A DNA stretch of 64,000 nucleotides from Acidicapsa acidisoli (GTDB lineage: Bacteria > Acidobacteriota > Terriglobia > Terriglobales > Acidobacteriaceae). The position numbers were made by a program, and so were the translations under genes. Below the pieces are notes generated by a model. The model ran no database searches. It was not told the DNA's origin and saw nothing but the letters and a program-made list of their open reading frames with translations. Location of the stretch: NCBI RefSeq assembly GCF_025685625.1, contig NZ_JAGSYI010000003.1, positions 1 to 64,000 of the forward strand, given 5' to 3'. Position 1 is the stretch's first letter, and every line of letters starts with the position of its first letter. This document shows, one piece after another, positions 16,955 through 44,889 of this stretch.

Positions 16955-17078
16955 AGGTCCTCGACCGTCAGCTCTCGTGAATGGTTGGTGGAAGCTCCGG
17001 GAGTTGCTCCGTGGGTCTTTTGGCCCTGCCATTTGAATACGATAGATCGATCCTAAAACTGATAATCAAGGACAAAGA

Positions 17079-17449: not shown

Positions 17450-17653
17450 ATCAAGTTTGCTGGCATTTGCGCACCACTGCTGAAGCCGCTCCCATTTGCC
17501 GGGGTCGTTCAGGTCACCGAGATGCGGAGATTTGAGATAGCGCGGCCATGCTGTCGCGGAGGCGTCCGGCGGCCGCGAATGCAGCTCGAGCATCCTGTGC
17601 CGATGATCAGTATCGATGCTACCAAATGCGTGCAACTGCAGCTTAGTGTCCAT
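17405..17653 (-). CDS. Small soluble protein after cydB, uncertain
   Basis: The ATG lies inside the last codons of cydB, an 11-base overlap of the type used for coupled translation. The 82-residue product is polar, with a Trp-containing stretch (LNDPGKWERLQQWCANASKL) and no membrane helix, so it is not a CydX-type subunit. It is also antisense to the end of the broken gene at 17079-17449. I do not recognise it and it may be a chance frame. Confidence 0.35.
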   Translation of the reverse strand: MDTKLQLHAFGSIDTDHRHRMLELHSRPPDASATAWPRYLKSPHLGDLNDPGKWERLQQWCANASKLDSSRQNRALFVREED

Positions 17654-28771: not shown

Positions 28772-30028
28772 TTAATCGCCCGAAGAGACCATCTGAACAG
28801 TGTGTAATTGATCGCCCACCGAGGAATCTTCGCCGCTGAAAAGCGGTATAGCAAGGAATCCAAGACAAAGTTGAGCGGCAGCAAAGACAGCAAGCGATAT
28901 AGTGAAGCCACTTCTCAGGACTACCTCGAAGATCAATGTGCCTAAGCCGAAGCCGCTGAACAATACGAACGCATTCATGCCCATCGCGAGTCCGCGTCGT
29001 GCTGGATTCACGGACGTGATGATTCCGGTCAGTAACGGATGACTCATGTCATAGCCGAGGGACAGAGCCGCTATGATGAGGGGTCGCACAAGTAAAGGTG
29101 AACGAGGAATGAGCGCAGCAGCGGAGACAGCGGCGACGACAATTCCAAGTGGGATGATGCGCTTCCTTCCGTACCGATCTGCAACATGTCCGATTATTGG
29201 TCCCAGCAGCATCCCTGGAATGCCGTAGCCTAGCAGGGCCAGTCCGATACCTTCATCGCCGAGGTGATACCGCTGCGAGAAGTACAGACCAAGCCACGAG
29301 AAAACTCCGGAATGGAAGATCCCATTAAGAAGGACGTAGATGTATCCCTTTGCAGCACGGGGATCAGAGAACAGATTCATATACCCGGAGATCAGTGCGC
29401 CGGCGCTTAGGGGATGCTGAGGGAGTTTGCTTTCAAAGCTGTGGCGGAGGCGGACGGCGAATGCAAGCGTGATCCCGCTAAGAAAGGCGGTTATCAGGAA
29501 CTCTTTCCGCCAGCCGATGATTGGATTCAAGAACGCGCCAACGGAAGATCCGAACGCCATTCCACCAGCCATTGCTCCGAACATCCATCCGATCGGTCGG
29601 CCCCGCTCGGCGTAAGGAAAAAGATCGCCTAAAAGCGCCAGTGCAATCGGTACGATTCCACCCGTCGCAACGCCACCTAGTATCCGCCAGGCCAGCATCT
29701 GATGAACGGTGCCAGCTGTCGCCACTCCGACGGTGGTCACAACCATCATTACCAGCAGCGTCAGAATGACCGGTTTCCGTCCAACTCTATCCGAAAGCGG
29801 ACCGTAGAACAGGGTCGATATGCCATACGGCAGCATGTACGCCGGTACGAGCATTCCCAGGAGATTTGTAGACGCGTGGAACTCGACCGCAAGTGCTGGG
29901 ATTAGTGGAGCGACAAGGTAAGTCTGGAAGAAGACCAGAAAGGCTGCTGCGGAGAGAATTCGCAACAAAGCTTCGCGCTGTGTGCTCGGATCACGAGAGA
30001 CCGTGAGATCTGTGTATGTTTGTGCCAT
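28772..30028 (-). CDS. MFS transporter (DHA1-like)
   Basis: The start at 30028 has a GGAGGAG ribosome binding site; the frame is open further upstream, but that is promoter sequence. The 418-residue protein has about twelve helices and the MFS motif A in the loop after helix 2 (GPLSDRVGRKPVILT), with a second form between the halves (IGHVADRYGRKRIIP). Substrates are unknown. Its control region (30050-30155) is repeated upstream of oxdC and the formate dehydrogenase, so I infer a carboxylate such as oxalate or formate, or a compound met along with oxalate. Confidence 0.88.
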   Translation of the reverse strand: MAQTYTDLTVSRDPSTQREALLRILSAAAFLVFFQTYLVAPLIPALAVEFHASTNLLGMLVPAYMLPYGISTLFYGPLSDRVGRKPVILTLLVMMVVTTVGVATAGTVHQMLAWRILGGVATGGIVPIALALLGDLFPYAERGRPIGWMFGAMAGGMAFGSSVGAFLNPIIGWRKEFLITAFLSGITLAFAVRLRHSFESKLPQHPLSAGALISGYMNLFSDPRAAKGYIYVLLNGIFHSGVFSWLGLYFSQRYHLGDEGIGLALLGYGIPGMLLGPIIGHVADRYGRKRIIPLGIVVAAVSAAALIPRSPLLVRPLIIAALSLGYDMSHPLLTGIITSVNPARRGLAMGMNAFVLFSGFGLGTLIFEVVLRSGFTISLAVFAAAQLCLGFLAIPLFSGEDSSVGDQLHTVQMVSSGD

Positions 30029-30049
30029 TGGTCTAGTTCTCCTCCCTTG

Positions 30050-30155
30050 ACTCCACGATTTCGATGCTCTCATCAGGTGAATTCCAATGTCTTTGGGCGC
30101 AGAATTCAGAAGTCTGAAACTTACTGAAATTGGAATGACTCGCCCACTCTGGTCA
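30050..30155 (-). promoter_or_regulatory. Shared control element, copy A (MFS)
   Basis: The element contains GAATTCCAATGTCT (30079-30092) and GAATTCAGAAGTCT (30102-30115), a direct repeat with 23-base spacing, preceded by ACTCCACGATTTCGATGCTC. It lies just upstream of the MFS ribosome binding site. Near-copies are at 34812-34912 and 42560-42680. Confidence 0.7.
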
Positions 30156-30235
30156 GAGCACGAATAGGCCCGAAGCGCGATAAGGCTTTTGTCTGGATTG
30201 CGGCCGGGATTCAGTCCGTTGACCAACCTTGACAA

Positions 30236-30883
30236 TTACGCGCAGTGTCTCGTTTCAGGCTTGGACATACTCCGATGGAACACTGCGTCTTTACCGAGCG
30301 CACGGAAAAGTGACTTTCTTGCTCTTACTAAACGTGATTTGGTGGCACCAAGTGAGGTGTGTGTTCGTTCGGCGACTTCGGACAAAGTGGATTCCTGGGA
30401 ATAGCAAATCTCGGTGGCCTCTCGGAGTAACCGCGGCAGTTGTTGTACAGCCCTACGGACCGCAAGTTGTCTCTCTTGCCGGAGAAAACAGAGTTCCGGA
30501 TTTAATGCTGGGTCGGACAATTGCAATTCGGGCCAAGTATCATCGTCGATCGGACTCTCTGGACGAACCCGCTTTTTTCGGAGAAGCATCAGCGCAGAGT
30601 TGATCGCAATTCGTCTTAGCCAAGTAGAAAAAGTAGATCTTCCATCAAACCTGCTGAGGTGAAGGTATGCATTCAGCAGGCAATCCTGCATTGCATCCTC
30701 TGCATCCTCTTTGTTCCGAGTGATGCGGTGAACTGCACGCATTGTGCTAGCGGAGTGACGCCTGCAAAGTTCAGCGTACGCTAGATTATTTCCCGCTTTG
30801 GCTGAGACGATGAGTGCCTCGTCGGTTGCCTTTGTTAAGACATTTTCCTTTGGACATTCTGGTCCCTTGTCAAACTGGTTCAT
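30236..30883 (-). CDS. ECF-type RNA polymerase sigma factor
   Basis: The ATG at 30883 has GGAGA six bases upstream; the slightly longer start at 30895 does not. The 215-residue protein has region 2 (YAELCRRHSASTMRAVHRIT, then KEDAEDAMQDCLLNAYLHLS and FSTWLRRIAINSALM) and region 4 (AVRRAVQQLPRLLREATEIC, then LSEVAERTHTSLGATKSRLV). No anti-sigma gene adjoins it, so its control is open. It may serve the nearby oxalate module or porin gene. A decayed relative is at 13691-14121. Confidence 0.9.
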   Translation of the reverse strand: MNQFDKGPECPKENVLTKATDEALIVSAKAGNNLAYAELCRRHSASTMRAVHRITRNKEDAEDAMQDCLLNAYLHLSRFDGRSTFSTWLRRIAINSALMLLRKKRVRPESPIDDDTWPELQLSDPALNPELCFLRQERQLAVRRAVQQLPRLLREATEICYSQESTLSEVAERTHTSLGATKSRLVRARKSLFRALGKDAVFHRSMSKPETRHCA

Positions 30884-31066
30884 CGGTTTCTCCATTGCGT
30901 TGATCTGTGCGTAGGTTCCGTTGAAGTGAACAGCCTGTTCGGCCTGTTCGCTGATGCTGCTTCTGCTCTAAGTGTTCTTCCAGAAGAACCACGCCGCCAT
31001 GCCGAAGTCTATGGCTATGAGGCGATAGCGCTGTTTCATAACTCGACCTTAATAAGACCTCATTTA

Positions 31067-32533
31067 TCACTTACCCACTCTGAAACGGTAGGTAATGCTG
31101 AAAAAGGAATATGTAAGGGGCGCGCCATGATCATTGGCCGACATCAGGCTCCCAGGGAAGAAGTGCCCAACTCCGGCATTTACGGCCCAGTAATCATGGA
31201 ACACATACTTCGCTGACGCATCAAAGCCATCACCAATGCTGTTGGTCCCAAAGCCATGGGCTGGAGCTTGCACCGTAACTCCCCCTCCGCTGTTATAGAC
31301 ACCGTCAAACCGTGAAGCAACGCCGAGCGCTTCGCCCTGGAACAACAGCGTGAGGTTCTTCGTCGGCCCAAGGTCGAGATTGACTCTTCGCTCCTTGATG
31401 TTCTGGAACCCAAAGAGATCAAAGAGTCCAAAAGCGTTGTGGTCGCTGGGATATTGCTGATCGTAGGTGCTGATGCGGTTGGGATCCCGATGTGGGTTGC
31501 CGGTTGCGTAGTCATACTCTCCGCCAAGCCGCGGCCTCCACGGAAGAGAATCGAACCTACGGGCAACCTTTACAACACCTGCGCCGGCATGAATAGAGTC
31601 GTTCGAGTAGCTGCCCCGCTGCAAATCTCCTACAACGTCGTAGTCAAACCCGGCAGGGAGACGGCCCTCCATTTCAGCTCCGAACGTCGTCTCTACCTCC
31701 GAGCCGTAGATCCCCTGCTGGCTCTTTACACGCGGCAAGGCTTTGACCAGAACAAACGGCTGGAGCAGGGTATTTGGGATCCATGAACCGATGGTCCCAT
31801 AGGCGCCATGAAAGGTCAGTCCTGCCCCGTGCGTGTCCAGCGAAGTGGGATTAATTTTCACCACCGAGGTGCTGAAGAGATCGACACTGTTCTTGTCGGT
31901 CGAGTCACCAAAATGCCCAAATAATCCATCAAAAGTTCTACTGACATTGGTCCAGTCGCTGATGCCAACGACACGTTCATTGCCGAACCGCAACTCCTTT
32001 CGTCCTGCGTACAGCCGAATATTATTGTCTTCGTTGTGATATTCAAGATAGCCCTGGCGCAGATCGAAGGTGTCGCGCATATTTCCTGCAACACTGTTCA
32101 CGGGCAGCCCTAAAGCGTGCGCGTCCATGAACTGCATATAGCCGGTGAGGAAGGAAGTCGGGCGGACTGTGAGTCCGCCATAAACGCGGGTTAGCTCGTA
32201 GATCCGGTCATTGCCTGGGTTGTCGTCATAGGATGTAAAGTCCTCGGTACGGAGCCTGATCTGTCCATCCAGACTTAGCCACGAAGGAAGGTCTTCCACT
32301 TTCCATGGCTCAACCTTGCCCCGGGTTTGTGGGTACTCCGCGTAGACTTGCGTCTGGCCATATGACATCAAGCATGGCGCCATGCACACGCCCAACGATG
32401 CAAGCATACAGAGTCGCTTACAGAAATTCGGCCTGGCCGGAGTTGAAACGTGATGAGAAGGAGATGACTCTGCCCCTTCGGTGGCGGCATTGCCGTCATT
32501 TGTCGAGACAGTGAATTTCGGGAAGTTCAACAT
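31067..32533 (-). CDS. Alginate_exp-type outer-membrane porin
   Basis: The 488-residue protein starts at 32533 with an AAAGGAAGAG ribosome binding site. An unusually long polar leader (about 40 residues) precedes the hydrophobic signal (LCMLASLGVCMAPCLMSYGQ). The mature protein is beta-rich with the Alginate_exp pattern: LSLDGQIRLRTEDFTSYDDN, then FDLRQGYLEYHNEDNNIRLY, AGRKELRFGNERVVG and the end FFSITYRFRVGK. Such porins pass acidic sugars or small carboxylates through the outer membrane. Neighbours point to oxalate or a related acid, but that is inference. Confidence 0.85.
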   Translation of the reverse strand: MLNFPKFTVSTNDGNAATEGAESSPSHHVSTPARPNFCKRLCMLASLGVCMAPCLMSYGQTQVYAEYPQTRGKVEPWKVEDLPSWLSLDGQIRLRTEDFTSYDDNPGNDRIYELTRVYGGLTVRPTSFLTGYMQFMDAHALGLPVNSVAGNMRDTFDLRQGYLEYHNEDNNIRLYAGRKELRFGNERVVGISDWTNVSRTFDGLFGHFGDSTDKNSVDLFSTSVVKINPTSLDTHGAGLTFHGAYGTIGSWIPNTLLQPFVLVKALPRVKSQQGIYGSEVETTFGAEMEGRLPAGFDYDVVGDLQRGSYSNDSIHAGAGVVKVARRFDSLPWRPRLGGEYDYATGNPHRDPNRISTYDQQYPSDHNAFGLFDLFGFQNIKERRVNLDLGPTKNLTLLFQGEALGVASRFDGVYNSGGGVTVQAPAHGFGTNSIGDGFDASAKYVFHDYWAVNAGVGHFFPGSLMSANDHGAPLTYSFFSITYRFRVGK

Positions 32534-32751
32534 ACTCTTCCTTTCAGTGGATTAGTAAACGTAAGGCGATTGTCTTCACCACTACCACTGCCATTGAGAC
32601 AGGCGAAATCCTCTTCCTCGGAGAACTCCGGCGGACCAGCAGGGCCCTGATGAAGAGTGGCGTAAACCCCTCCCTGCTCTCTTTGTCCCAGGCACGCATC
32701 TACTTCGGATAGGCACTACGTCATTGACAGAGATAACTGCGCTGCACTCGC

Positions 32752-33351
32752 CTAAATCCAGACTTTGGCGCCCAATGCCAGATTTACAGTTATCGCGTAC
32801 GTGCAGTACATCAGCCAGACGCCGGTAAGAAATTGAAACAGCCCTATAATGCGAGTACCAAATTCCCAGGACAATAAGCGGGTGGGAACTTCGGTGGCAT
32901 AGATCAAGGTTAGGCCGACAAAGATGATCATCACGGGGATGTCTCCGGCCCGCCAAAAGACGTCAACGCCAAGAATGCTGAGAAACAGGAATGCTATGGC
33001 CATCCAACCATCCAGCTGGGCGCTGGAATCGATATATCGTCGATGGGCCATCGCGAACCAGTGAATGCCGTAAGCCGTGAATGCGAGGCCTGCCATATAC
33101 AAAGGAGCCGCATTGCGGAAGACATTAAACCACGTCAATCCGGTCAGCAGGTAAATGCCGGTGAGGAACTGCATAAAGCCCGGCATCCAGAAACCCCATA
33201 ACCCTAGAGATCGGTTGACCTCGGGACTGGTCTTAGGAAACCCAAACAGGGCCTGACCACCCCATATAAAGTAGCCGGTACCCAAGCCAAAGAAACCAAT
33301 GGCGACCGGCACAAAGGGAGAACTTGCAAACGTGATTATTTGCGTTTCCAT
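32752..33351 (-). CDS. Six-helix membrane protein, distantly AceTr/SatP-like
   Basis: The 199-residue protein has about six membrane helices. The spacing of WMPGFMQFLTGIYLLTGLTW and YMAGLAFTAYGIHWFAMAHR recalls the helix 2-3 region of the acetate/succinate family (GPR1/FUN34/SatP: a Gly-Gly-x-x-Gln then a Gly-Asn-Thr-Phe and a Phe-x-Ser-Tyr-Gly), but the family's Asn-Pro-Ala-Pro-Leu signature is missing. A small-carboxylate channel fits its place between the porin and oxdC. This is a tentative call. Confidence 0.5.
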   Translation of the reverse strand: METQIITFASSPFVPVAIGFFGLGTGYFIWGGQALFGFPKTSPEVNRSLGLWGFWMPGFMQFLTGIYLLTGLTWFNVFRNAAPLYMAGLAFTAYGIHWFAMAHRRYIDSSAQLDGWMAIAFLFLSILGVDVFWRAGDIPVMIIFVGLTLIYATEVPTRLLSWEFGTRIIGLFQFLTGVWLMYCTYAITVNLALGAKVWI

Positions 33352-33451
33352 TCTGAATGCCCTCTCAAGAGTTGTGCGTTAATAGTTGTGTCGATAACTG
33401 CGGTGCAGAATGACTACTGTGAATCCTTCAGCACCGCCATAAGGTGGACGG

Positions 33452-34723
33452 CTATCCTGCGATCACAACCCGCTTTTCTGCAGAGATCTTCCGGATAGTT
33501 GCCTCATCGATGTTTAGGTGTGCAGTCACCATTTCCCGAGGGAGACGTCTGATCCAATTGTTCATGGAGAAGTCCAGGTATTGGTGTGCCTTGAACATTT
33601 CGAGAAAGACCAGATCGGTATTGCCCGTATTCTCGATGTAGTGACCGGCAACCGGTGGAACGTAGCCAACATCGTTGGCATTGAAGTCCATCGTGCGAGC
33701 TCTCGTCGGGGGCATAAATACAGTCATCCGCCCCTTGCCTGCGAGGTAAAACTGCCACTCGGAAGCATTTGGATGCCAATGCAACTCGCGGATACCGCCA
33801 GGCTTAAGCGTGACCAGTGCGGCGGCGATGCTGTTCGAGGCCGGGAAATTGTGCGAGTCTACGATGCGAACTTCGCCTCCGGCTGTTTTCACAGTGGGGG
33901 CCATCGACGACATCTTGAATGTGTACTGGATCGATGACTCTACACTCTTCCCGCCAACGGCTGCCTTGTCCTGAGCCAAAGAACCAGGAAGGTCGCCAGG
34001 AAAGATATAAAGCTCATCTTTCGGTAACCTTGCAATGGCGCGCCGATCGAGATTGGAGTTCTTTGTCAATATCTCAGGCGGCGTATGAGCAACCCACGCG
34101 GAGATGAGGAAAGTGTTGTCTTCCGAGAACATGCCTTCATCAAAAACAAGCAGGAACTCGCAACCGTCCCCTGGCCCCAGGCCTTGAATGGAATGCGGAT
34201 AGCCGGCAGGGAAGAACCAGAGGTCACCCTTGCTCACATCGTCGATGAATATCGTTCCATCGGGATTCAGAACCGTGACGCGAGCATTGCCGTTGAGCAT
34301 AATGGCCCATTCATCTGCCGTGTGCCAATGCAATTCACGGAAGCTGCCACTGGTGAGCCGCATGCAGACGCCCGAGAGATCTTTTGAGGGAGGTAGTTCG
34401 CGCTGAGTTACCTGGTGCGCCCAGCCACCTTCCTGCATGCGGTTGCGCGCCAGATCAAAGGAATACCAGATTGGGCCTACGTCTCCATGATCCGTCGGAG
34501 GAGGTGTGTTTGAATTCGGGTTCTCGGCCAGAAGAGGCGCATTCTCCGGCCCTGGATCGCTCGAAGAGTGATCGCTTTCAGCCTTCCGTGTGTCCTCGCG
34601 CTGTTGTGCGTTCGCCGTCAGTCCAGCGAATGTTGCCACGGCGAGTGCGGCGGAACCGACTTCCAGGAAACTCCGTCGTGATGGATTCTCTACCAGTTCA
34701 CTCTGGTTCTCTTTATCAATCAT
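33452..34723 (-). CDS. oxdC: Oxalate decarboxylase, Tat-exported bicupin
   Basis: The 423-residue protein starts with a Tat-like signal (SRRSFLEVGSAALAVATFAG) and has two cupin domains. Mn ligands are His132, His134, Glu138 and His177 in the first (FRELHWHTADEWA, then PAGYPHS) and His315, His317, Glu322 and His361 in the second (IRELHWHPNASEWQFY). The lid over the N-terminal site reads SEDNT (200-204); its Glu201 matches the Glu162 proton donor in Bacillus OxdC (SENST), which marks decarboxylase rather than oxidase. It converts oxalate to formate and CO2, here outside the cytosol. The gene is divergent from the regulator at 35021, with control element copy B between them. Confidence 0.93.
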   Translation of the reverse strand: MIDKENQSELVENPSRRSFLEVGSAALAVATFAGLTANAQQREDTRKAESDHSSSDPGPENAPLLAENPNSNTPPPTDHGDVGPIWYSFDLARNRMQEGGWAHQVTQRELPPSKDLSGVCMRLTSGSFRELHWHTADEWAIMLNGNARVTVLNPDGTIFIDDVSKGDLWFFPAGYPHSIQGLGPGDGCEFLLVFDEGMFSEDNTFLISAWVAHTPPEILTKNSNLDRRAIARLPKDELYIFPGDLPGSLAQDKAAVGGKSVESSIQYTFKMSSMAPTVKTAGGEVRIVDSHNFPASNSIAAALVTLKPGGIRELHWHPNASEWQFYLAGKGRMTVFMPPTRARTMDFNANDVGYVPPVAGHYIENTGNTDLVFLEMFKAHQYLDFSMNNWIRRLPREMVTAHLNIDEATIRKISAEKRVVIAG

Positions 34724-34811
34724 TGGTCTTCTCTCCTGTTCTTGATCCGGCGACTCACCCCCAGGGCAAGCTCTCTGAGGTTACGGGGGATCCATATGAA
34801 GTTGGCTGTTG

Positions 34812-34912
34812 TAACTCCACGATCTCGATGCTCGCATGGGGTGAATTCCAGAGTCTTTGGGCGCGGAATTCAGGAGTCTGAAATCGCAAAACTTCTTATT
34901 TGTCGCCCACAT
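34812..34912. promoter_or_regulatory. Shared control element, copy B (oxdC/regulator)
   Basis: GAATTCCAGAGTCT (34843-34856) and GAATTCAGGAGTCT (34866-34879), 23 bases apart, follow ACTCCACGATCTCGATGCTC (34814-34833). The element lies between oxdC (minus, start 34723) and the regulator (plus, start 35021) and could serve both. Confidence 0.7.
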
Positions 34913-35020
34913 ACGGGCCCCACCTTGGTATCGCAAGACGCGTATCATTATGTCAGTGGCGGTCCGGGAGAAGGCGCAAAGAAGTTGGCCTCTCCTGGGC
35001 AGCGTAGGAGACCCGCTCCG

Positions 35021-37906
35021 ATGGATTTCCCCAGCCGAAACAATCCGGACCGTATTATGCGAGTGGATTCTCGCGACGACGAAGGGGTTGTGTTTGGGAA
35101 CTACCGTATCTTTCCCGAACTCAAGATTCTTCTGAAGAACGGGAACAAAGTTGACCTTACCGCTCGCGCCTTCGATGTTCTGTGGGTACTGGTCAAAGCT
35201 CGCGGAGAAGTCGTAACCAAAGATGAACTGATCGAACAGGTTTGGGCTGGCTCCATCGTTGAAGAGAACAATCTTCAGACTCACATCTCGGCGATCCGAA
35301 GGGCGCTCAAACAAGACCGTAGTTTTATCTCCACGGATTTCGGACGAGGCTATCGACTGACGTTGCCCGCTCCAGCCAGAACGAATCTAATTCCAGCGAA
35401 GGAGAAGATCGAATCGCCGAACCTACCAAACCCACTTACTACGCTTTTGGGGCGGGACAGCGAATTGCGTGATCTCCAACAGCTAATCACCGCAAACCGG
35501 CTCACGACGATCACGGGACCCGGCGGAATCGGTAAGACACGCCTGGCTATTGAGGCCGCGCGGCGTCTCCAGCTTTCCTTCTCAGGAAGAGTTCATTTTG
35601 TAGAGATGGGCATGATTGGAGAGAGCGATAATATCTGGCCAGCCATAGCCAGAGCCCTCGGCATGGAAGCAACCAATATGGGCCTTACGGCCGAATCGCG
35701 TATCGCACTCCGGAACCAGCGTCTTCTACTCATCATCGATAACTGCGAACATCTCACCGAAGCTATCACCCGGGTGGTCGAGACCATTCTTCAGATCGGA
35801 GGGGAATTACATATTTGTATTACGAGCCAAGAGCCTTTTGGCGCCCAGGGGGAACAGATCTACCGGATACGCCCGCTGGCAGTTCCTCCGGCAGACGCTT
35901 CGACCATGGATGTGGTGCTGCCCCATGCGGCGGCTCAATTGTTTGTCGAGCGATCCCTGTCCTATACCCGTGATTCCCAGTTTGACGATGCTACGGCCCG
36001 CGAGATTGCCACGATCTGCCGCCAACTCGACGGGGTGCCACTGGCTCTCGAACTTGCAGCGGCACGGGTGCCGACCCTCGGCGTTCGCGGCATACTCGAT
36101 GGTTTGTCCGACAGGTTCAGGCTTCTGACCGCAGGCCAGCGCAGTGCGTTGCCCCGGCACAGAACACTAAGGGCGACTGTGGAGTGGAGTCACCGCCTTC
36201 TAGACGAGACTGAGCGTACACTCTTCCGCCGATTGGCGGTCTTTCCTGCCGGATTTACAGTGCAGGCGGCCCATTGCGTTAGCGGCCCGGACATTGAGGA
36301 TCAGTGGCAAATCATTGACCTGCTGGGAAACCTTGTTGGCAAATCGCTTCTTCATCTGGATGTGTCCGCCTCGGCGCCGCGCTATCGCTTTCTCGAAACA
36401 ATTCGCCTCTATGCGTTGGAAGAGCTTGCTGATAGTGGCGAAACAGACCTCACGGCCCGACGTCACGCTTCCTATTTTCAGAGGATCAGCGAGCAGGCCG
36501 TCATCGATTGGAAACGTCAAGCTACTGAGGATTGGCGCCAAGTCTACCGTGGATATGTCGATGATATGCGTGCCGCTCTCCAATGGGCCTTCTCCGAAAA
36601 CGGAGATCAAGAGATGGGGGTACGGACGCTACAGAATTCCATTCCGTTTTGGGTAGAGTTCTTTCTGCTCGACGAATGTCGTCGCTGGGTCTCCCTTGCC
36701 CTTGATAAGCATGGAGTCACAGAAACAACCGGCACGCGTGACGAAATGGCTTTGCGTGGGGCGCTCGGCAGATCACTGACTTGGGTGCGAGGCCCCGTGG
36801 CAGAAACGGGAGCTGCGTGGTCTCGGGCCTTGGAGCTCGCACAGGAACTCGGCGACACTGAGATTAAACTTCAGGCTCAATATGGCCTCTGGCTCTTCAG
36901 CTTACGAAGGGGCCATTACTCCGAGGCGCTGCGTTTCGCCACGGAGATGATGACGCTGGCCACAGAGGTAAAGGATGATGACGCATTCGCTACTGCGCAG
37001 CGGATCGCAGGAGTGTCCCGTCATTCCCTGGGCGGCCACGCAGAGGGGCGCACCCTTATTGAGAGGTCGCTCATGTGGTTTGAGCAGAATCGGCCGCAGT
37101 CGGCATTTCGATTCGGTCTCGATCAGCACGCGGCTGGCCTTGCGTTTCTTGCTCGCATCCAATGGGTTCAAGGCCATACAACCGATGCTGTCAAGACCGC
37201 TAATCTAGGGGTCGAACGCGCCGTCGCACTCGATCACGCCCCTACTCTATGTATCGCGTTAGCCGAGGGACTATGTATGGTATCCGCTTTGAACCAAGAC
37301 CTCGACTCACTGGCGACGGCAGCACAGACTCTAACTCATATGGCCTCCCTTCACGGCCTGCAATTTTGGAAAGCATATGGTGATCTCTTCGAGGTATGGG
37401 CGATGATACAGCACAAAGAGAAACCGGCGCCGGGGCGTTTCACCTCGGTCATACGAGTACTGAACGAAATGCAGTTCGACCTTTGGTACACGCCCTTTGT
37501 CGCTGACGTTCTTCGTTCGTGCGCATCACCAGTGGATTCGATAAGGACTTCGTTTCGTCCACCTGCGGACTGTGAGGACAACCACTGGGCGATGCCTGAG
37601 CTCCTCCGGATCGAAGCGGAGTTCGATTTAGAGCACAACGATGGACGGCTTAAATCGACAGTTGAACATCGCCTGGAAAGTGCGCTCGCGCTCGCTCACG
37701 AATGCGGTGCTCGCTCTTGGGAATTGAAAGTCGCTGCCACCCTCGCGCGTCTGTTGATCAGCGATAACCGCCGTGATAAAGCGCAGACCCTGCTCCGCAG
37801 CACGATTTCTTCCTTTCCCAGCGGCAACGAATCCCACGGCCTGCGAACGGCGAACGCCATCTTGAACGAATTACAGCATTTGCCATCACACGAACCGTCG
37901 GTATAA
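35021..37906 (+). CDS. Winged-helix / NB-type ATPase / TPR transcriptional regulator
   Basis: I start at the ATG at 35021 (GTAGGAG ten bases upstream), giving 961 residues; the frame is open back to 34742 only because it crosses the control element. Domains: an OmpR/CadC-type winged helix (about 12-110; LTARAFDVLWVLVKARGEVV, then NNLQTHISAIRRALKQ), an NB-ARC-like ATPase with Walker A (TGPGGIGKTRLA), Walker B (LLLIIDNCEHL) and a downstream LPLALELAAARV sensor motif, then a TPR-rich C-terminal half. Such regulators switch on ATP and a ligand or partner. Its position and the direct-repeat operators make it the best candidate regulator of the module. Confidence 0.88.
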   Translation: MDFPSRNNPDRIMRVDSRDDEGVVFGNYRIFPELKILLKNGNKVDLTARAFDVLWVLVKARGEVVTKDELIEQVWAGSIVEENNLQTHISAIRRALKQDRSFISTDFGRGYRLTLPAPARTNLIPAKEKIESPNLPNPLTTLLGRDSELRDLQQLITANRLTTITGPGGIGKTRLAIEAARRLQLSFSGRVHFVEMGMIGESDNIWPAIARALGMEATNMGLTAESRIALRNQRLLLIIDNCEHLTEAITRVVETILQIGGELHICITSQEPFGAQGEQIYRIRPLAVPPADASTMDVVLPHAAAQLFVERSLSYTRDSQFDDATAREIATICRQLDGVPLALELAAARVPTLGVRGILDGLSDRFRLLTAGQRSALPRHRTLRATVEWSHRLLDETERTLFRRLAVFPAGFTVQAAHCVSGPDIEDQWQIIDLLGNLVGKSLLHLDVSASAPRYRFLETIRLYALEELADSGETDLTARRHASYFQRISEQAVIDWKRQATEDWRQVYRGYVDDMRAALQWAFSENGDQEMGVRTLQNSIPFWVEFFLLDECRRWVSLALDKHGVTETTGTRDEMALRGALGRSLTWVRGPVAETGAAWSRALELAQELGDTEIKLQAQYGLWLFSLRRGHYSEALRFATEMMTLATEVKDDDAFATAQRIAGVSRHSLGGHAEGRTLIERSLMWFEQNRPQSAFRFGLDQHAAGLAFLARIQWVQGHTTDAVKTANLGVERAVALDHAPTLCIALAEGLCMVSALNQDLDSLATAAQTLTHMASLHGLQFWKAYGDLFEVWAMIQHKEKPAPGRFTSVIRVLNEMQFDLWYTPFVADVLRSCASPVDSIRTSFRPPADCEDNHWAMPELLRIEAEFDLEHNDGRLKSTVEHRLESALALAHECGARSWELKVAATLARLLISDNRRDKAQTLLRSTISSFPSGNESHGLRTANAILNELQHLPSHEPSV

Positions 37907-38041
37907 CTTCGTGAACGCTGGAGTGCGTTTCAAGCCCGCCGGGTGTCCCTCCTTGCGCGTCTCGTTGACCATCAACAACCACATTATCGTCTTCTTACGC
38001 CCAAATACGTATGCTCCGGCTTGAAGTGCTATAGGATTCAC

Positions 38042-38167
38042 TTAGCGGCGCATTCCAAAGCGACGTGCGAGTCGGGTAACCATAGGCGAGGGCAGGCAGG
38101 ATGCTCCTAAAACGAAAACTCCGATTAACGCTATAAAACCGCCCGCAACAAAGATAAGGATGTTCAT
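38042..38167 (-). CDS. 41-residue single-pass membrane peptide
   Basis: MNILIFVAGGFIALIGVFVL opens one membrane helix followed by a basic tail ending RLARRFGMRR. A GGAAAG ribosome binding site precedes the ATG at 38167. It lies downstream of the DUF1641 gene on the same strand, so it could be a small partner of the formate dehydrogenase. Found from the raw sequence; no family recognised. Confidence 0.5.
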   Translation of the reverse strand: MNILIFVAGGFIALIGVFVLGASCLPSPMVTRLARRFGMRR

Positions 38168-38346
38168 CAGCTTTCCTTCTCTGGCCCGATAGGCCTGATT
38201 GCTATATTACTTCCAGTCTGAAGGCGTTAACTCCAGCGAAGTCAAGCATCTCGTTCAGTCGAATATAGAACGGATGACCCGAACCCGCAGCTATACCCGT
38301 GTTTGCCACACACAAAGCCTCCCCCTGCTCCTTCGGCATCTGTCAC

Positions 38347-38802
38347 CTATTCAAGCTTCCGCGGTTTCGACTTCTCGAGTGCCTCGCCGAAGGCGGTTAG
38401 TAACCCCAGCCCGACCGCCATCGCGCTTCGCGCCTCCTTCGAAGTCACCTGCTTACCCATCGACAGCAGCGAGGGCGGCTCCTTGCTACCTGCCGCCAAC
38501 GCTGTGCTGATCTTGTCCGCATCGATAGAACCCAACATATTGACCATCATCAGCCCCAGCCGGGTGGCGGTAACCGCCTGTGGAGAGCTGATGATGCCCA
38601 CGGCATGATTCACAACGGCCTCGCCCGCCGTCAGAAGGCCGGTGAGCAGTTCCAGAATGCCCTTCTCATGGAGCTGCCGGAGCAGCTCATACGCCGCCAA
38701 GACCGCCTCGGCATGCTCCGCTGGAGCACCCTCGAGTTTCTTGATCAGGTCGACGCGCGCATCGACCGGTGTGAAATTCCTGAAATCAACTGCAGTTGCC
38801 AC
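38347..38802 (-). CDS. DUF1641 protein, partner of the formate dehydrogenase
   Basis: No ATG begins the conserved part; the GTG at 38802 with GAAAGG upstream gives 151 residues starting TAVDFRNFTPVDARVDLIKK after the initiator. The helix-rich sequence (LYELLRQLHEKG-like, then GLMMVNMLGSIDADKISTAL) is DUF1641, as in Bacillus YjgD/YrhD, encoded beside YjgC/YrhE and reported there as the subunit that links formate oxidation to menaquinone. The same pairing here supports a membrane-linked dehydrogenase. A frameshifted second dehydrogenase end lies just upstream. Confidence 0.8.
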   Translation of the reverse strand: MATAVDFRNFTPVDARVDLIKKLEGAPAEHAEAVLAAYELLRQLHEKGILELLTGLLTAGEAVVNHAVGIISSPQAVTATRLGLMMVNMLGSIDADKISTALAAGSKEPPSLLSMGKQVTSKEARSAMAVGLGLLTAFGEALEKSKPRKLE

Positions 38803-38824
38803 GGTAACGCCTTTCTTCTCTGTG

Positions 38825-39263
38825 CTACTGGATTTGAACGAGCTTCGGAGTACCCGGCACACGGAAGTCCTTCCGCGCCCACTTGCGCTCCATTTCGACA
38901 CCGTTCTGCGGCGTCAGCTTGCCCGGGTAGCGCGCGTTGATCGGCTAGAGCAGATTGCGCCCTTCTCCGAAAGCACTTCGATCTTGATCGCGGTCTCCTT
39001 GTACGCCGATGTATTCGTCGCGTTGTCCCGTGAGAACCGGTCAGGATATTGGTCGGCCCTCGGTCGGCGAGAACAGCACTAGGTACACCTGCTTGCCGAA
39101 CACCTGCTTGGTGACCAACACCTTGATCTTCAGCGATCCGTAACGGCTGGTGCTATGCACCCACCGACCCGACTGGAGATTCAGCTCCTGCGCCAGATCT
39201 TCCGAGATCTCGAGGTACCGCTCCGGTGCGTGCTCGCGGATACCAGGCGCTACATAAGGTCGG
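38825..39263 (-). pseudogene. Frameshifted second copy of the formate dehydrogenase C-terminus
   Basis: Three frames read in turn match the last ~135 residues of the intact enzyme: APERYLEISEDLAQELNLQS and GRWVHSTSRYGSLKIKVLV, then DNATNTSAYKETAIKIEVLS, then NGVEMERKWARKDFRVPGTP before a stop at 38825. A stop after NLL and at least two frameshifts break it. Nothing of the molybdenum-binding part remains. It lies between the DUF1641 gene and the intact enzyme, the trace of a tandem duplication or of an older replaced enzyme. Confidence 0.88.
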
Positions 39264-39335
39264 GGAGCCAGTTCTTGGAACAGGAGTTACGACAAATCTA
39301 CGTCGATATCGCCACGGATTCCGTCTCACTTCCAA

Positions 39336-42300
39336 TTACTTAAGCAGCTGGATGTTGACCAGCTTGGTTGTGCCGGGCAACTGATAGTCCTTCCGCTTCC
39401 ACTTGCGTTCAACCTCGACGCCCATCTGTGGCGTGGGTTTGGCGTTATAGCGGAAATTGAGAGGCATCAGCGGGTTGGAACCCTTGTCCTTAAGCAACTC
39501 CATCCTCACGGCTGTCTCTTTATAGGCAGGGGTGTTGGTGGCATCGTCGGCATGCGAACCGGTCAGCACATTGACCGGCCCCTCCCGCGAGAACAGCGGG
39601 ACGTAGATCTGATTCCCTTTCACGCGAGAGGTGACCAGAGCCTTGATTTTGATCGATCCGTACCGGCTGGTGATTCGGACCCAGCGGCCAGACTCGACAC
39701 CGCGTTCCTGGGCGAGCTCCGGAGAGATTTCGATGTAGCGCTCAGGAGTCTCTTCACGAATGCCGTTGACGCGATAAGTCATATTGCCTTCGTGGAAGTG
39801 CTCCAACTGGCGACCGTTATTCAGGAACAGATCAAATTCAGAGTCGGGCTGCTCGAAAGGTTCAGTGAAGATGACGGGATGGAACCTGGCCTTTTTGTCG
39901 GGGAAGGGGAAGCCATCCAGGTACAAGACAGGCTCATCGGTGCCGTCCGCAGCGACGGGCCACTGAAGGGTGTTGTAGTCTTCGAGGCGCGTGTAGCTTG
40001 CGCCCGCATGAATTGGGCTGAGGGTAGCCAGCTCGTCCATGATCTCGGAGGGGTGCAGGTAGTTCCAGTCGGCACCCATGCGGCGGGCGATTTCCTGGGT
40101 GATCTTCCAATCAGCGCGGGAGTCGCCGATCTCAGGCAAAGCCTGATAGAGGCGCTGGATGCGGCGTTCAGTGCTGGTGAAAGTGCCGTCCTTTTCGAGA
40201 GCCGGAGAGGCGGGCAGCACGACATCGGCATAACGGCATGTTTCGCTGAAGAAGATATCTTGCACGACCATGAAGTCGAGCCGCTCGAAGGCACCGGCGA
40301 CGTGGTTGGCATTGGAGTCGGCGGAGATCATATCTTCGCCGGCGATATACATGGCGCGTAGCTTGCCTTCGTAAGCGGCATCCACCATCTGGTGGTTATC
40401 CATTCCGCGCTCCGGCGGCAGAGTGACCCTCCAGCTCTTTTCAAACTTAGCGCGGACAGCGGGATCGTTGACCGCCTGATAGCCGGGGTAGTAGTTCGGC
40501 GCTGCGCCCATGTCGCCGGCGCCCTGTACGTTGTTATGGCCGCGGAGCGGGTATGCACCGCCGCCCCGGTGCATGTAGTTGCCGGTGGTCAGCAGGAAAT
40601 TGGAGATGGCGGTCGACACGTCAGAGCCGCGAATGTGCTGGGTAACGCCCATGGCCCAGCAGATGGCGATGGTCTCGGAGGCAGCCAGCTCCTGCGCGAG
40701 CTTCTCCAGGGTCTCGCGCGGAATTTCGCAGACCTTGGACGCGTACTCCATGGTGTAGGGCTCGAGGCTCTTCTTGTACTCCTCGATGTTATTGACCCAC
40801 TGATTGAGGAAGTCGAGCTTGGCATAGCCGTGGTCGAACATGTAGCGGCTCATGGCCGAGAGCCAGACGAGATCAGTTCCTGGGCGGGGACGGAAGTGGA
40901 GGTCGGCACGGCGGGCCAGTTCGTTTTCGCGCGGATCTGCGACGATCAGCTTGGAGCCGAAGAGCTTTTGGGCGCGCTTCATGCGGGCGGCCAGCACGGG
41001 ATGAGCCTCGGCGGAATTCGCGCCGACGATGACGATCGCCTTGGAGTACACGAGGTCCTCGAAGGAGCCGGAGTCGCCGCCGTGGCCAACGGTACGGAAG
41101 AGGCCGGTGGTGGCCGGAGACTGGCAGTAGCGGGAACAGTTATCGATATTCTGGGTGCCGATGACCTGTCGGCCGAACTTCTGCATTAGGAAGATCTCTT
41201 CGTTGGTGGTCTTCGAAGAGGCGATGACGGCGATGGAGTCAGGGCCGTACTGGGCTTTGATCTGGGAGAGCCTGGAGGAGACCAAGTCGAGGGCCTCTTC
41301 CCAGCTGGCTTCGCGGAAGCCGTCGCCTTCACGGATGAGGGGACTTTGGAGGCGCTCTTCGTGGTTGACGAAGTCCCAGCCAAACTTGCCCTTGACGCAG
41401 GTGGAGATCTCGTTAGCGTCGCCCTTTCCGGGAACGATCTTGAGTATCTTACGGTCCTTGGTCCAGACGTCATAGCTGCAGCCCACTGAGCAATAGGTGC
41501 AGACGGTCTTGGTCTTCTTGATGCGTGCTTCGCGCATGTGCGCTTCGGTTTCGGAGACTTTCATGATCGCGCCGTAGCCCATTTCGGGTTCGATCGCCTT
41601 GACGACGTCGATCATCTTGTTGAGAGCATTCTTGGGCATGCCGCTCATATAGCCGGCTTCACCGAGCATGGACTTTTCCATGAGGGCGTTGCAAGGACAT
41701 ACTGTGACGCACTGGCCGCAGGAGACACAACTGGAGCCGCCGATCTGCATACCGCCGTCCCAGAGGACTCGAGGCCGATCCAGTTCCCAGCCGATCGAGA
41801 GCGTTTCATTGACCTGAACGGTCTGACAGGCTTGGACGCACTGGCCGCAGAGAATGCACTCGCTGGGATCGTAGCGATAGAAGGGATTCGACATATCCAC
41901 TTCGTATGGCTTGGGGGTAAAGGGAGTCTCCTGGTGCTCAATGTTGAGCGCCATGGCCGTGTTGTGGACCCGGCAGTTCTCGTTGTTGTTATCGCAGACC
42001 GTACAGTAGAGCAGGTGGTTGCCGAGGATTGTGTCGAAGGCCTCGGCGCGCGCATCGGTGGCACGCTTGGATTCTGTGACCACCTTCATGCCAGCGGTGA
42101 CGTTCGTGCCGCAGGAGCGGACCAGCTTGCCGTCGACTTCGACCATGCAGGTGTCGCAGGTCTGGATGGGACCCATCAGAGGGGAATGGTAGCAGATGTG
42201 CGGAATTTCCCTCTCGCGAAGGACCGCTTCGACCAATAACTCGCCTTCGGTAGCGCGCAGATATTTTCCATCAACGGAGATCTCAACCTCTCTGGGCAGC

Positions 42301-42407
42301 TCGGAAGGAGCCGGCCGGAACGCCGAATACTTCTGCGCGGGGAACTTATGCTGACTGGATCCCTGCTGATCAGGTATGGATTGGTGTTTGACTTCTAGAA
42401 TGCTCAT
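39336..42407 (-). CDS. Formate dehydrogenase alpha subunit, YjgC/YrhE type
   Basis: The 1023-residue protein has a NuoG-like start: 2Fe-2S Cys72/84/87/99, a His-Cys cluster near 131-145 (CTVCDNNNENC), two 4Fe-4S ferredoxin motifs (Cys184/187/190/194 and Cys227/230/233/237), then the fourth cluster at Cys303/306/310/337 heading the Mo-bisMGD domain and the C-terminal guanine-dinucleotide domain. The Mo ligand is Cys428 (NCSRYCQSP), not selenocysteine, and is followed by Gln instead of the His usual in formate dehydrogenases; as far as I recall, the Bacillus YjgC group shares this. It oxidises formate to CO2, completing oxalate breakdown. GAGGA precedes the start. Electron acceptor: NAD or quinone via DUF1641. 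Confidence 0.9.
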   Translation of the reverse strand: MSILEVKHQSIPDQQGSSQHKFPAQKYSAFRPAPSELPREVEISVDGKYLRATEGELLVEAVLREREIPHICYHSPLMGPIQTCDTCMVEVDGKLVRSCGTNVTAGMKVVTESKRATDARAEAFDTILGNHLLYCTVCDNNNENCRVHNTAMALNIEHQETPFTPKPYEVDMSNPFYRYDPSECILCGQCVQACQTVQVNETLSIGWELDRPRVLWDGGMQIGGSSCVSCGQCVTVCPCNALMEKSMLGEAGYMSGMPKNALNKMIDVVKAIEPEMGYGAIMKVSETEAHMREARIKKTKTVCTYCSVGCSYDVWTKDRKILKIVPGKGDANEISTCVKGKFGWDFVNHEERLQSPLIREGDGFREASWEEALDLVSSRLSQIKAQYGPDSIAVIASSKTTNEEIFLMQKFGRQVIGTQNIDNCSRYCQSPATTGLFRTVGHGGDSGSFEDLVYSKAIVIVGANSAEAHPVLAARMKRAQKLFGSKLIVADPRENELARRADLHFRPRPGTDLVWLSAMSRYMFDHGYAKLDFLNQWVNNIEEYKKSLEPYTMEYASKVCEIPRETLEKLAQELAASETIAICWAMGVTQHIRGSDVSTAISNFLLTTGNYMHRGGGAYPLRGHNNVQGAGDMGAAPNYYPGYQAVNDPAVRAKFEKSWRVTLPPERGMDNHQMVDAAYEGKLRAMYIAGEDMISADSNANHVAGAFERLDFMVVQDIFFSETCRYADVVLPASPALEKDGTFTSTERRIQRLYQALPEIGDSRADWKITQEIARRMGADWNYLHPSEIMDELATLSPIHAGASYTRLEDYNTLQWPVAADGTDEPVLYLDGFPFPDKKARFHPVIFTEPFEQPDSEFDLFLNNGRQLEHFHEGNMTYRVNGIREETPERYIEISPELAQERGVESGRWVRITSRYGSIKIKALVTSRVKGNQIYVPLFSREGPVNVLTGSHADDATNTPAYKETAVRMELLKDKGSNPLMPLNFRYNAKPTPQMGVEVERKWKRKDYQLPGTTKLVNIQLLK

Positions 42408-42440
42408 AGGTTCCTCAATGATGGACCGGAGAACCAGTCC

Positions 42441-42551
42441 CTACTGCTTGTACAGATCACACGGACGGCGGACCGAAGCCGCGCGCAGTAAAGCTTTGCG
42501 CCGTAAGCTGTGATCACGAGAATAAGGGAAGGCTGTGCATGTTTGTGCCAT
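42441..42551 (-). pseudogene. N-terminal stump of a second MFS transporter
   Basis: The frame from ATG 42551 reads MAQTCTAFPYSRDHSLRRKA, then LLRAASV, and ends DLYKQ. It matches the start of the MFS protein at 30028 (MAQTYTDLTVSRDPSTQREA, then LLRILSA), including the same GGAGGAG ribosome binding site. The rest of the transporter is gone. The stump lies between control element copy C and the formate dehydrogenase start. Confidence 0.8.
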
Positions 42552-42559
42552 TGGCCTAA

Positions 42560-42680
42560 TTCTCCTCCCGTGACTCCACGATCTCGATCCTCTCATCTGG
42601 TGAATTTCAGAGTCTTTGGGCACGGAATTCAGGAGTCTGAAATTTGCTCAAATTTGCATCGCTCGCCCATTCTAAAGACA
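42560..42680 (-). promoter_or_regulatory. Shared control element, copy C (formate dehydrogenase)
   Basis: GAATTTCAGAGTCT (42602-42615) and GAATTCAGGAGTCT (42625-42638), 23 bases apart, follow ACTCCACGATCTCGATCCTC. Similarity to copy A continues on both sides through the MFS ribosome binding site and codons. It probably now drives the formate dehydrogenase from about 150-270 bases upstream. Confidence 0.7.
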
Positions 42681-42985: not shown

Positions 42986-44878
42986 TTAAGCTGCCGTGAC
43001 GCTCGTCGTATGCGTGGTCTGGGTCGGTAGAGTGAAATAAAACGTTGCTCCTCGCCCATCGTTTGCGCTCGCCCAGAGACGGCCTCCGTGGGCTTCAACG
43101 ATGGAGCGGCTGATGCGAAGCCCCATGCCGGTTCCGTGAGGCTTAGTGGTAAAGAAGGCATTGAATATCTGCTCAGTCTGCTGGGAGGGAAGGCCTATGC
43201 CGGTATCGCTGACGGACACGATCAGGTGCTCGTTTTCCGGCCGCCGCGACTTGATGATCAATTCCCGCAGCCCATCCACACCCTTCATTGCATCGATGCT
43301 GTTCATGATCAGGTTCATCGCGACCTGCTGCAATTGCACGCGATCTCCGATGATCTGAGGGAGGTCATCGGCCAGTTCTACCCGGATTGAGATGTTGTGT
43401 CGCATTACCTCGCTCCGCAGGAGGGCAATCATCTCTCGAATGACTTCGTTCACATCAACCGCCTCCCGCTTCACGGCGGTCTTCTCGAACTGCGACCGGA
43501 TTCGGGTGATGAGTTCGCCAGCTAGCTTTCCGTTTCCCACAATTCTCGTGGCGGCCGCGCGAGCCTCTTCGAGATCGGGCTGTTTGCGTCCGAGCCATTG
43601 CAAGCAGGTGTAGGCATTGACAACGGCGGCGGCAATTGGCTGATTCAATTCATGCGCCAGGGAGGCAGTCAGTTCTCCCATCGTGGTCACCCGAGCCACA
43701 CGCGCGAGATTCGCCTGAGCCTCGCGCAGCGCTTCCTCGGCACGCTTGCGTTCGGTGAGGTCAAGCACGAAGGCAACACCTTGGTTCGCGCTTTCTTCGA
43801 AACTCGCGCTACCGATAAGGACGGGCACGCGGCTACCGTCTTTTCGCAAATATTCTTTCTCCATCGGTTGCATGCGCCCAGTCATCTTGAGCTCGGCGAC
43901 CCATTGTTGGGCGTCGCGTTCACGCCATTCCGGTGGCGTCAGGTCCGTCCAGCGCAGGCGGCCTGAGACGAGATCCCCTCGATCGTATCCGACCATCAGC
44001 AGGAACGCGTCATTGGCTTCGAAAATCAGACCCTCAATATCCCATAAGAAAATCCCGATGATGTCAGCATCGATGAGGCGGCGGATCCGAGCTTCCCGCT
44101 CCCGCAGGACTGCCTCTGTCTGGCGGCGGGCCGCTACGTCTCGACTAAGCTGCTCGTTGATGTCATTAAGACTGCGATAGGCGGCCTGCAGATTGTCAGA
44201 CAAGATATTAAAGGCTGTGACTACCCGCTGCAGCTCGTCCTCGTGCCGGCGAGTGGGACGACGCAACTGCAACGGCGGAGATGGGTCGCTAATCCGATAG
44301 CTGGCAGCGAAGGTTGCAATTGCGAATAAATGACGCGTTATCTGTTTGTGGAAGATATATACGATAAACAGCGAAACTAGGAATATCTCCGCCGCCTGGT
44401 TTAAAAAAATAGTCCATCCCGTATGAACAAGCCTTCGACGCAGGTCGACAAGCGTGGCCTGGACATAGAGCGTGCCGATCCTAGTGTTCTGCCCCTGCGC
44501 ATTGTATAGAAGTGGGTATTCCCGCGTGATTGTTGATGATGCGGATCTCTCACCAAGCCTTATGACCAGCGGATTGCCTGTGTTGCTAGCCTCACGTACC
44601 TCAACGGCGCGCATATCAGGGAGCCGAAGAATTCCCGTGAGCTGTAGCCGCAACTGGTTTTCATCGAGGGCCCAGAGCCGCTCAGCCAAGCTGTCCAGAT
44701 TGGTCTTGCCAATCTGGTCGAGTCGCAACTCGAGATCCGAGACGTCGTGCCGGTACTCAAGGTAAAGCTGAACCACGGTCAAGATGAGCGTGACGCAGAC
44801 ACTGAAGAGCAGAACGCTACTCAACAGGCGCACGGTTAGACTGTGGAAAGCAATCCTGGGAGTAGAGGGGAAGAGCAT
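42986..44878 (-). CDS. PAS-containing sensor histidine kinase
   Basis: The 630-residue kinase has a membrane segment (about 20-40), a periplasmic domain (about 45-165, LRLDQIGKTNLDSLAERLWA), a second segment, a HAMP-like linker with coiled coil, one PAS/PAC domain (about 265-385), HisKA with the His in SLAHELNQPIAAAVVNAY, and HATPase_c with N-box NLIMNSIDAM and G1 VSDTGIGLPS. The HisKA resembles FixL/DctB-type kinases. It follows a periplasmic binding protein by 11 bases, so the two likely sense one solute together. No response regulator adjoins. Confidence 0.9.
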   Translation of the reverse strand: MLFPSTPRIAFHSLTVRLLSSVLLFSVCVTLILTVVQLYLEYRHDVSDLELRLDQIGKTNLDSLAERLWALDENQLRLQLTGILRLPDMRAVEVREASNTGNPLVIRLGERSASSTITREYPLLYNAQGQNTRIGTLYVQATLVDLRRRLVHTGWTIFLNQAAEIFLVSLFIVYIFHKQITRHLFAIATFAASYRISDPSPPLQLRRPTRRHEDELQRVVTAFNILSDNLQAAYRSLNDINEQLSRDVAARRQTEAVLREREARIRRLIDADIIGIFLWDIEGLIFEANDAFLLMVGYDRGDLVSGRLRWTDLTPPEWRERDAQQWVAELKMTGRMQPMEKEYLRKDGSRVPVLIGSASFEESANQGVAFVLDLTERKRAEEALREAQANLARVARVTTMGELTASLAHELNQPIAAAVVNAYTCLQWLGRKQPDLEEARAAATRIVGNGKLAGELITRIRSQFEKTAVKREAVDVNEVIREMIALLRSEVMRHNISIRVELADDLPQIIGDRVQLQQVAMNLIMNSIDAMKGVDGLRELIIKSRRPENEHLIVSVSDTGIGLPSQQTEQIFNAFFTTKPHGTGMGLRISRSIVEAHGGRLWASANDGRGATFYFTLPTQTTHTTSVTAA

Positions 44879-44889
44879 GATACCCCACT

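Follow-up and report, generated by a model that had tools for sequence, protein, structure and literature searches.

A candidate two-step oxalate disposal island with copied leader sequences in Acidicapsa acidisoli

Does Acidicapsa acidisoli carry in one locus the genes for a route from oxalate via formate to CO2, and how would such a locus have been assembled? Soils and litter are rich in oxalate, and they are also a common habitat of acidobacteria. The question is raised by a stretch of 64,000 nucleotides (nt) from this acidobacterium (contig NZ_JAGSYI010000003.1, positions 1 to 64,000; hereafter the window), in which an oxalate decarboxylase gene, oxdC, lies close to genes for a formate dehydrogenase (FDH). 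An original prediction, made from the letters of positions 30050-42680, had described an oxalate-to-formate-to-CO2 island with its own regulator. On balance, our analysis favors a two-step oxalate disposal island whose units are probably switched on together and in which the pairing of ForC with oxdC probably arose independently of the same pairing elsewhere. The joint pathway is supported by linkage of oxdC to FDH genes in other acidobacteria, including an FDH of a different type, and by an upstream leader common to the units. In the following, G000 denotes the own genome (7.1 Mb), other G numbers other genomes, and L numbers loci or genome pieces.

On the minus strand the genes follow each other from right to left as forC, forE, oxdC, oam, the porin gene, a sigma factor gene and a transporter gene of the major facilitator superfamily (MFS). 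Between oxdC and forE, a winged-helix regulator gene runs the opposite way, on the plus strand. All of these are open frames in the region. The genes of the proposed pathway are:

39336-42407 (-), forC, ForC-type formate dehydrogenase (TIGR01591, 810 bits; best match in the PDB YjgC)
38347-38850 (-), forE, ForE-type (DUF1641) partner subunit, start uncertain (family profile against ForE1 of 8rqz, 3.7e-23)
33452-34723 (-), oxdC, bicupin oxalate decarboxylase with a twin-arginine motif (TIGR03404, 498 bits; alignment to 1j58)
32752-33351 (-), oam (name coined here), small hydrophobic protein of 199 aa, neighbor of oxdC or forC
31067-32533 (-), Alginate_exp-type outer-membrane porin (PF13372, 133 bits)
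28772-30028 (-), MFS transporter, starting at the ATG after the shared leader (PF07690, 174 bits)

By family the oxdC product is a bicupin oxalate decarboxylase with predicted activity. It passes the curated TIGR03404 cut-off of 254 bits, and its closest solved relatives are the Bacillus subtilis OxdC structures 5vg3 and 1j58. Alignment to the latter recovered all metal ligands (H132/H134/E138/H177 and H315/H317/E322/H361) and the lid residue E201, as had been predicted, together with R129, R312, E375 and Y382. We take the roles of these residues to be those of their counterparts in B. subtilis, including Arg92 and Arg270. Like the B. subtilis enzyme, the protein thus has both metal sites, the lid Glu and both conserved Arg residues; unlike it, it bears at residue 15 a twin-arginine motif (SRRSFLE, recognized by eye with no signal-peptide program), and its gene is followed by a membrane-protein gene and then a porin gene. 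Of the proposed export by twin-arginine translocation (Tat), the motif is present and the export itself is presumed. Counting the own genome, oxdC was found in 15 of 120 relatives. The own genome holds four copies (two on contig C3, one each on C2 and C4); the two places on C3 are near its opposite ends, which show no exact overlap of at least 20 nt. On a contig of a Verrucomicrobiota metagenome-assembled genome (L069), oxdC nests inside the acidobacterial oxdC tree, which may reflect transfer or misbinning.

The dehydrogenase and its partner are, as judged from their sequences, a ForC/ForE (YjgC/YjgD) pair, which bears out the predicted FDH with a DUF1641 partner. ForC exceeds the TIGR01591 cut-off of 666 bits, matches B. 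subtilis YjgC best among PDB entries (9gzq, 8rqz) and bears the CQ...RGH motif (C428-Q429 and R622-G-H624) that is described as a mark of menaquinone-linked ForCE enzymes (PMC8808070). ForE alone has no Pfam match at E<=10. DUF1641 was matched by 11 of 14 members of its family at E<=1 (best 3.9e-7), and a profile of these 14 homologues, each encoded beside a ForC gene, found ForE1 of 8rqz. In sequence, active-site motif and adjacent DUF1641-family partner the pair resembles the B. subtilis formate:menaquinone oxidoreductase ForCE, from which it differs in the proximity of forC to oxdC and in the leader common to both. The main text of the B. subtilis ForCE study (PMC8808070) never uses the word oxalate.

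Linkage of oxdC to FDH genes was surveyed at 84 oxdC loci, comprising 68 of 79 named loci (L030-L099 minus two from Staphylococcus), 15 loci from the G genomes (L112 aside) and the window; many of these are short contigs, and some genomes supply several loci. Left out were L094, L095 and L100-L108 (Staphylococcus and alphaproteobacteria), where no FDH match was seen. In 6 of the 84 loci forC was found within 9 kb of oxdC (L035, L038, L040, L084, L099 and the window). The two genes are divergent and 0.2-0.4 kb apart in L035 and L038, and separated by 8.2 kb in L040 and 8.8 kb in L084; measured from forE, the spacing is 3.6 kb in the window and 3.9 kb in L099. ForC with at least 59% identity was counted by hand as 30 copies in 27 of the 120 relatives (0.25 per genome). 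Under a Poisson model that ignores kinship, 0.10 linked loci would be expected by chance at 0.31 ForC per 4.3 Mb, and 0.31 at one per 4.3 Mb. The seventh FDH-linked locus, L042, has a different set, FdnG-FdnH-NrfD, between oam and oxdC. Its FdnG-type alpha subunit (TIGR01553, 830 bits against a cut-off of 814) has an in-frame TGA, at 2901, in the place of the FDH-N selenocysteine; the FdnH-like beta subunit reached 191 bits against TIGR01582, below the cut-off of 335. Hence the linkage in relatives that the original prediction had named as its check was found. Not counted as an FDH case was L123 (G018, 12612-18174), where an oxdC of another subfamily lies beside a gene for an FdhF/YdeP-type oxidoreductase and an MFS gene; the MFS product is scored as a lactate transporter, and with a value under the cut-off also as OFA.

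Two paralogues from the own genome, on C6 and C2, are the companions of the window copy in the ForC trees; no oxdC was seen in the pieces around them, and the other oxdC-linked copies fall into another starred clade. The pairing in the window is therefore probably independent of the one seen in other acidobacteria. Starred branches of the oxdC tree require 5 or more changes of the FDH label and 3 or more of the Oam label, changes that can be losses.

The second line of evidence, absent from the original prediction, is a repeated leader sequence:

29961-30150 (-), leader copy 1, 74-nt core (30047-30120), Shine-Dalgarno region and first 22 MFS codons
34811-34884 (-), leader copy 2, core only, between oxdC and the regulator gene
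42484-42673 (-), leader copy 3, upstream of forC, including a remnant MFS gene start
31028-34749 (-), oxdC-oam-porin block, second genomic copy at G000 C3:972118-975834 (85%)

The upstream regions of the MFS gene and forC have 190 nt in common that are 81% alike and consist of the core, the Shine-Dalgarno region and the first 22 MFS codons. In the dead MFS start of the forC copy, differences are spread evenly across the codon positions (6, 6, 5). Between oxdC and the regulator gene only the core is present, 85-91% alike and with sharp edges (flanks 23-27% alike). The relic codons are 75% alike, against 85-91% for the core, a raw comparison of percentages. The distance from the core to the start is 19 nt for the MFS gene, 88 nt for oxdC, 163 nt for forC and 137 nt for the presumed start of the regulator gene; a direct repeat, GACTC..GAATTC, occurs twice in the core only in the oxdC copy. 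The 7.1-Mb genome gave only three matches to the leader at E<=0.001, namely the query itself and two others at 7e-45 and 1e-22. The 120 relatives gave two short matches (22 and 27 nt, E 0.007-0.009), beyond which nothing was found among the collected loci outside G000. Repeats of at least 40 nt upstream of the corresponding genes were not found in L099, L040, L042 or L035. A structured RNA element is disfavored by the lack of an Rfam match in the window and by folding of the 74-nt core no better than that of shuffled sequences (z 0.3, -1.1 and -1.0). With three genomic copies and two short matches in the relatives, a mobile element was likewise rejected. From these upstream copies, the MFS, oxdC-oam-porin and forC-forE units are probably switched on together, the leader being a putative promoter.

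The second oxdC-oam-porin block is 85% alike over 3,726 nt; the similarity breaks off 26 nt short of the oxdC ATG at one end and 39 nt past the porin gene at the other. A different leader of 121 nt (89%) precedes both oxdC and a sigma-factor gene there. Because the block match ends before the oxdC ATG and each copy has the leader of its own locus, the operon body seems to have been copied without a promoter, each copy now having a leader that also stands before another gene of its locus. The 121-nt copies lie at L109 6833-6953 and 10873-10993 (G000 C3, about 971.8 and 975.9 kb), and close to the end of each copy ATGAAACAC opens a short leader frame. As a control for leader copying, 50 own-genome pieces (1.0 of 7.1 Mb) were scanned, the upstream position being judged by eye. 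Copy pairs upstream of genes in the same direction were found in 2 of 4 pieces with oxdC and 2 of 46 without it (Fisher test about 0.03, computed by hand). The latter two, with functions read by eye, are L191 (1586-1681 and 7885-7979, before an RND-type gene and, further along, a small open frame) and L223 (4992-5181 and 6513-6705, before outer-membrane-efflux-like and dehydrogenase-like genes). Leader copying may thus be general in this genome.

Putative mobile promoters, or promoter propagation, were reportedly described by Matus-Garcia et al. in 2012. The island agrees with the definition of such elements in having upstream DNA 81-91% alike before the non-homologous MFS gene, oxdC and forC. 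Similar stretches before unrelated genes are common to both cases; unlike putative mobile promoters, the leaders found here are local, have three copies and precede genes of one proposed pathway, and two of the copies hold the donor gene's start codon and first codons.

In the mechanism that we propose, oxalate would enter the periplasm via the Alginate_exp porin, whose family assignment by the original prediction was confirmed. OxdC, presumably exported by Tat as its twin-arginine motif suggests, would there convert oxalate and one proton to CO2 and formate, following the chemistry of its family. Formate or formic acid would reach the cytoplasm via Oam, the MFS protein or diffusion. ForC would then oxidize formate to CO2 and, together with ForE, pass the electrons to menaquinone, as work on B. 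subtilis ForCE suggests. The three units would be co-activated through the common leader.

The Oam protein is the least familiar part of this scheme. It has 199 residues, of which 8.5% are charged. An AlphaFold model has six helices at low confidence (predicted local distance difference test, pLDDT, 50). At this confidence its fold search is not meaningful, and the absence of AceTr from the resulting list carries no weight. The original prediction had called this protein AceTr-like, a description that was not confirmed. None of 7 Oam members matched Pfam at E<=10, AceTr/SatP (PF01184) included, and an hhalign comparison with three genuine AceTr proteins from relatives (SatP structures were matched by one of the three) gave P of 0.13 and 0.17 from shallow profiles, which is not significant. 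Oam shares with AceTr/SatP the length of about 200 aa and, in the low-confidence model, the six helices; the best local profile alignment, with 53 N-terminal columns in register, is not significant. Oam differs in the absence of a Pfam match and of the AceTr motif NPAPLGL, which is seen in L185.

The distribution of Oam is narrow. In three overlapping samples it was found in the own genome (2 copies) and one further genome among the 120 relatives, in the own genome only among 396 genomes of the phylum, and in the own genome and 3 others among 399 of the class. Plasmids gave no match at E<=1 and viral contigs none. The six other aligned full-length members are 79-92% identical to the window copy. 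In 5 of 6 places found without oxdC as bait, oam lies by oxdC or forC, 2 of these 5 being broken remnants; a fragment at a contig edge (C60) of G734 was left out of this count, and three more members (L040, L042 and L043) came up with oxdC as bait. Both own-genome copies follow oxdC by 0.1 kb, and in G064 one contig carries oam together with oxdC (4.5 kb away) and forC (10 kb away). The G734 gene has a frameshift and a stop and ends about 30 nt before forC, with no oxdC seen on the 17.8-kb contig. In G103 a 25-residue remnant (E 5e-5) lies 0.2 kb before forC, inside a longer frame of another reading frame. These two cases of oam beside forC with no oxdC in sight make formate the likelier cargo, and Oam is a candidate formate (or oxalate) carrier on the basis of its neighborhood. 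No member of PF01226 (FocA/NirC) or PF01184 (AceTr) was found in the own genome. A wider proposal is tentative and rather unlikely to hold in full. Oam would be a new family of formate (or oxalate/formate) carriers linking periplasmic OxdC to differing FDHs, in an oxalate regulon built when oxdC operon copies that lacked a promoter received that of a neighboring gene, first codons included, by copying. At L166 (G734, 5674-11128) and L167 (G103, 9094-14430) a CtaG-like frame (by eye), decaying oam, forC and forE follow in series, with cytochrome-type genes upstream and, in G103, also an FdhD-like frame (by eye).

Several observations weigh against the proposed island. A carrier step must be assumed because OxdC would be periplasmic and ForC cytoplasmic, and in G730 oam has neither oxdC nor forC within about 9.6 kb. 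The OxdC of L099 (G064), one of the linked loci, is short of about 63 residues, lid included. Among the candidates scored, at most 6 per genome, ForC of at least 59% identity was found in 6 of the 15 oxdC genomes and not in the other 9; oxdC and ForC were on one stretch in 2 of the 15, where draft contigs may part genes. The other three own-genome oxdC loci have no FDH within 8-10 kb on either side. On the oxdC tree neither label was clustered beyond chance in 500 shuffles, the FDH label requiring 6 changes (mean over shuffles 6.8; 6 or fewer in 85) and the Oam label 5 (mean 5.8; 5 or fewer in 71). An FDH match at E<=1e-100 was found in 13 of 14 same-genus relatives, 12 of these without oxdC; with FDH so widespread where oxdC is missing, ForC has other uses. 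A consensus scan limited to sigma-70-like sites found none in the leader cores, and copied leaders also occur elsewhere in the own genome. Growth on oxalate, the oxalotrophy of the original prediction, is putative, and oxdC without ForC found is the commoner state.

Part of this evidence would fit a defensive role, in which OxdC uses up periplasmic protons and destroys fungal or plant oxalate, ForCE clears formic acid, and no growth on oxalate takes place. In B. subtilis, oxdC is reported to be induced by external acid and yjgCD/yrhEFG by acid and benzoate (PMC2788229). This acid induction of oxdC and both ForCE pairs makes defence a serious rival to feeding, as do the 9 of 15 oxdC genomes where ForC was not found, which put detoxification or acid defence beside growth on oxalate. 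In addition, the own genome has no Oxc above cut-off. The two kinds of FDH beside oxdC in 7 of 84 loci suggest instead that electrons or formate matter, and the four oxdC copies in one genome also speak against defence, which we nevertheless rate as a strong contender, somewhat short of an even chance. That chance alone made the genes neighbors, oxdC-oam-porin being one unit and forC-forE another for general formate respiration, appears improbable. The spread of forC in the genus independently of oxdC, the opposite-strand regulator gene between the units and the unclustered labels would fit such an arrangement, but 6 linked loci where 0.1-0.3 are expected, the FdnG-FdnH-NrfD case of L042 and the leader common to both units would not.

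The leader itself can be read otherwise, as scars of local duplication with no regulatory meaning, so that the three units are not co-regulated. The copied upstream stretches in L191 and L223, which have no oxdC, agree with this, as do the dead MFS gene start carried in the forC copy and the missing RNA structure signal and sigma-70-like site. On the other hand, all three copies aim at the start of an island gene, the core is better kept than the relic codons, and a leader of this kind precedes the oxdC-oam-porin block in each of its two copies. We consider scars plausible although the less convincing account of the leader. The preferred reading remains a two-step oxalate disposal island with units that are probably co-switched.

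Two further genes belong to the region:

35021-37906 (+), winged-helix/AAA regulator, divergent from oxdC, start uncertain (Trans_reg_C, 66 bits)
30236-30895 (-), ECF-type (extracytoplasmic function) sigma factor (Sigma70_r2 and r4_2; TIGR02937, 78 bits, cut-off 43)

The regulator had been predicted as a winged-helix/ATPase/TPR protein. Trans_reg_C and an AAA_22 match were recovered, and TPR gave only a partial NCBIfam match below cut-off. Among the candidates scored in the 120 genomes, at most 7 per genome, relatives at E<=1e-100 outside the own genome numbered two (31-32%), both in G004 on contig C2, apart from the oxdC-bearing C1 and C3. Control of the island by this divergent gene is possible, with no comparative support in these genomes, and the claim that the island has its own regulator is unproven. 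The sigma factor gene was missing from the original prediction. The MFS transporter had been predicted correctly as to family, its gene lying just left of position 30050 where the described region begins. It has relatives of 46-52% in 3 other genomes, and the OFA/OxlT models TIGR00890 and TIGR04259 were not among the best 25 of 82 NCBIfam matches.

Other genes recur near oxdC. A porin homologue was seen at 8 of the 84 loci. A LysR gene lies somewhere in the stretch at 17 loci and a gene for a resistance-nodulation-division (RND) pump at 11 including the window (25518-28697), both as raw counts. At five loci (L030, L033, L050, L061 and L110) there is a TauE-like gene, the L030 member belonging to PF01925, whose product is possibly another anion carrier. 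Just upstream of forC, window positions 42986-45774 hold a gene for a CHASE5/PAS histidine kinase and another gene with a weak match to a solute-binding protein (E 0.14).

OxdC, ForCE and promoter propagation are already known; the assembly of these known parts is new. The island shares the step from oxalate to formate with type V and that from formate to CO2 with type III oxalate degradation as outlined in PMC10192776. Unlike these types with their OxlT exchange, it has no CoA steps and no OxlT-type carrier identified, and decarboxylation is probably outside the cytoplasm. In the same source oxdC is mapped among bacteria, with Acidobacteria named in one gene tree. The original prediction had held oxalotrophy to be notable for this group, which is borne out in part. 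In titles, abstract openings and passages of the open-access literature we found no paper that joins oxdC to an FDH in Acidobacteria, none on an oxdC-FDH island and none on leaders common to both. The decarboxylase as such is less unusual, being present in 15 of 120 relatives and named for Granulicella, where OxdD is reported to go up with Mn (PMC7315648).

If true, a CoA-free periplasmic conversion of oxalate to CO2 that captures electrons would be an added way to close the oxalate cycle. For formate transport in this genome, in which the search for FocA-family genes gave none, Oam is a specific candidate, and the copied leaders would provide a case of regulon assembly by promoter duplication that is readable from the sequence.

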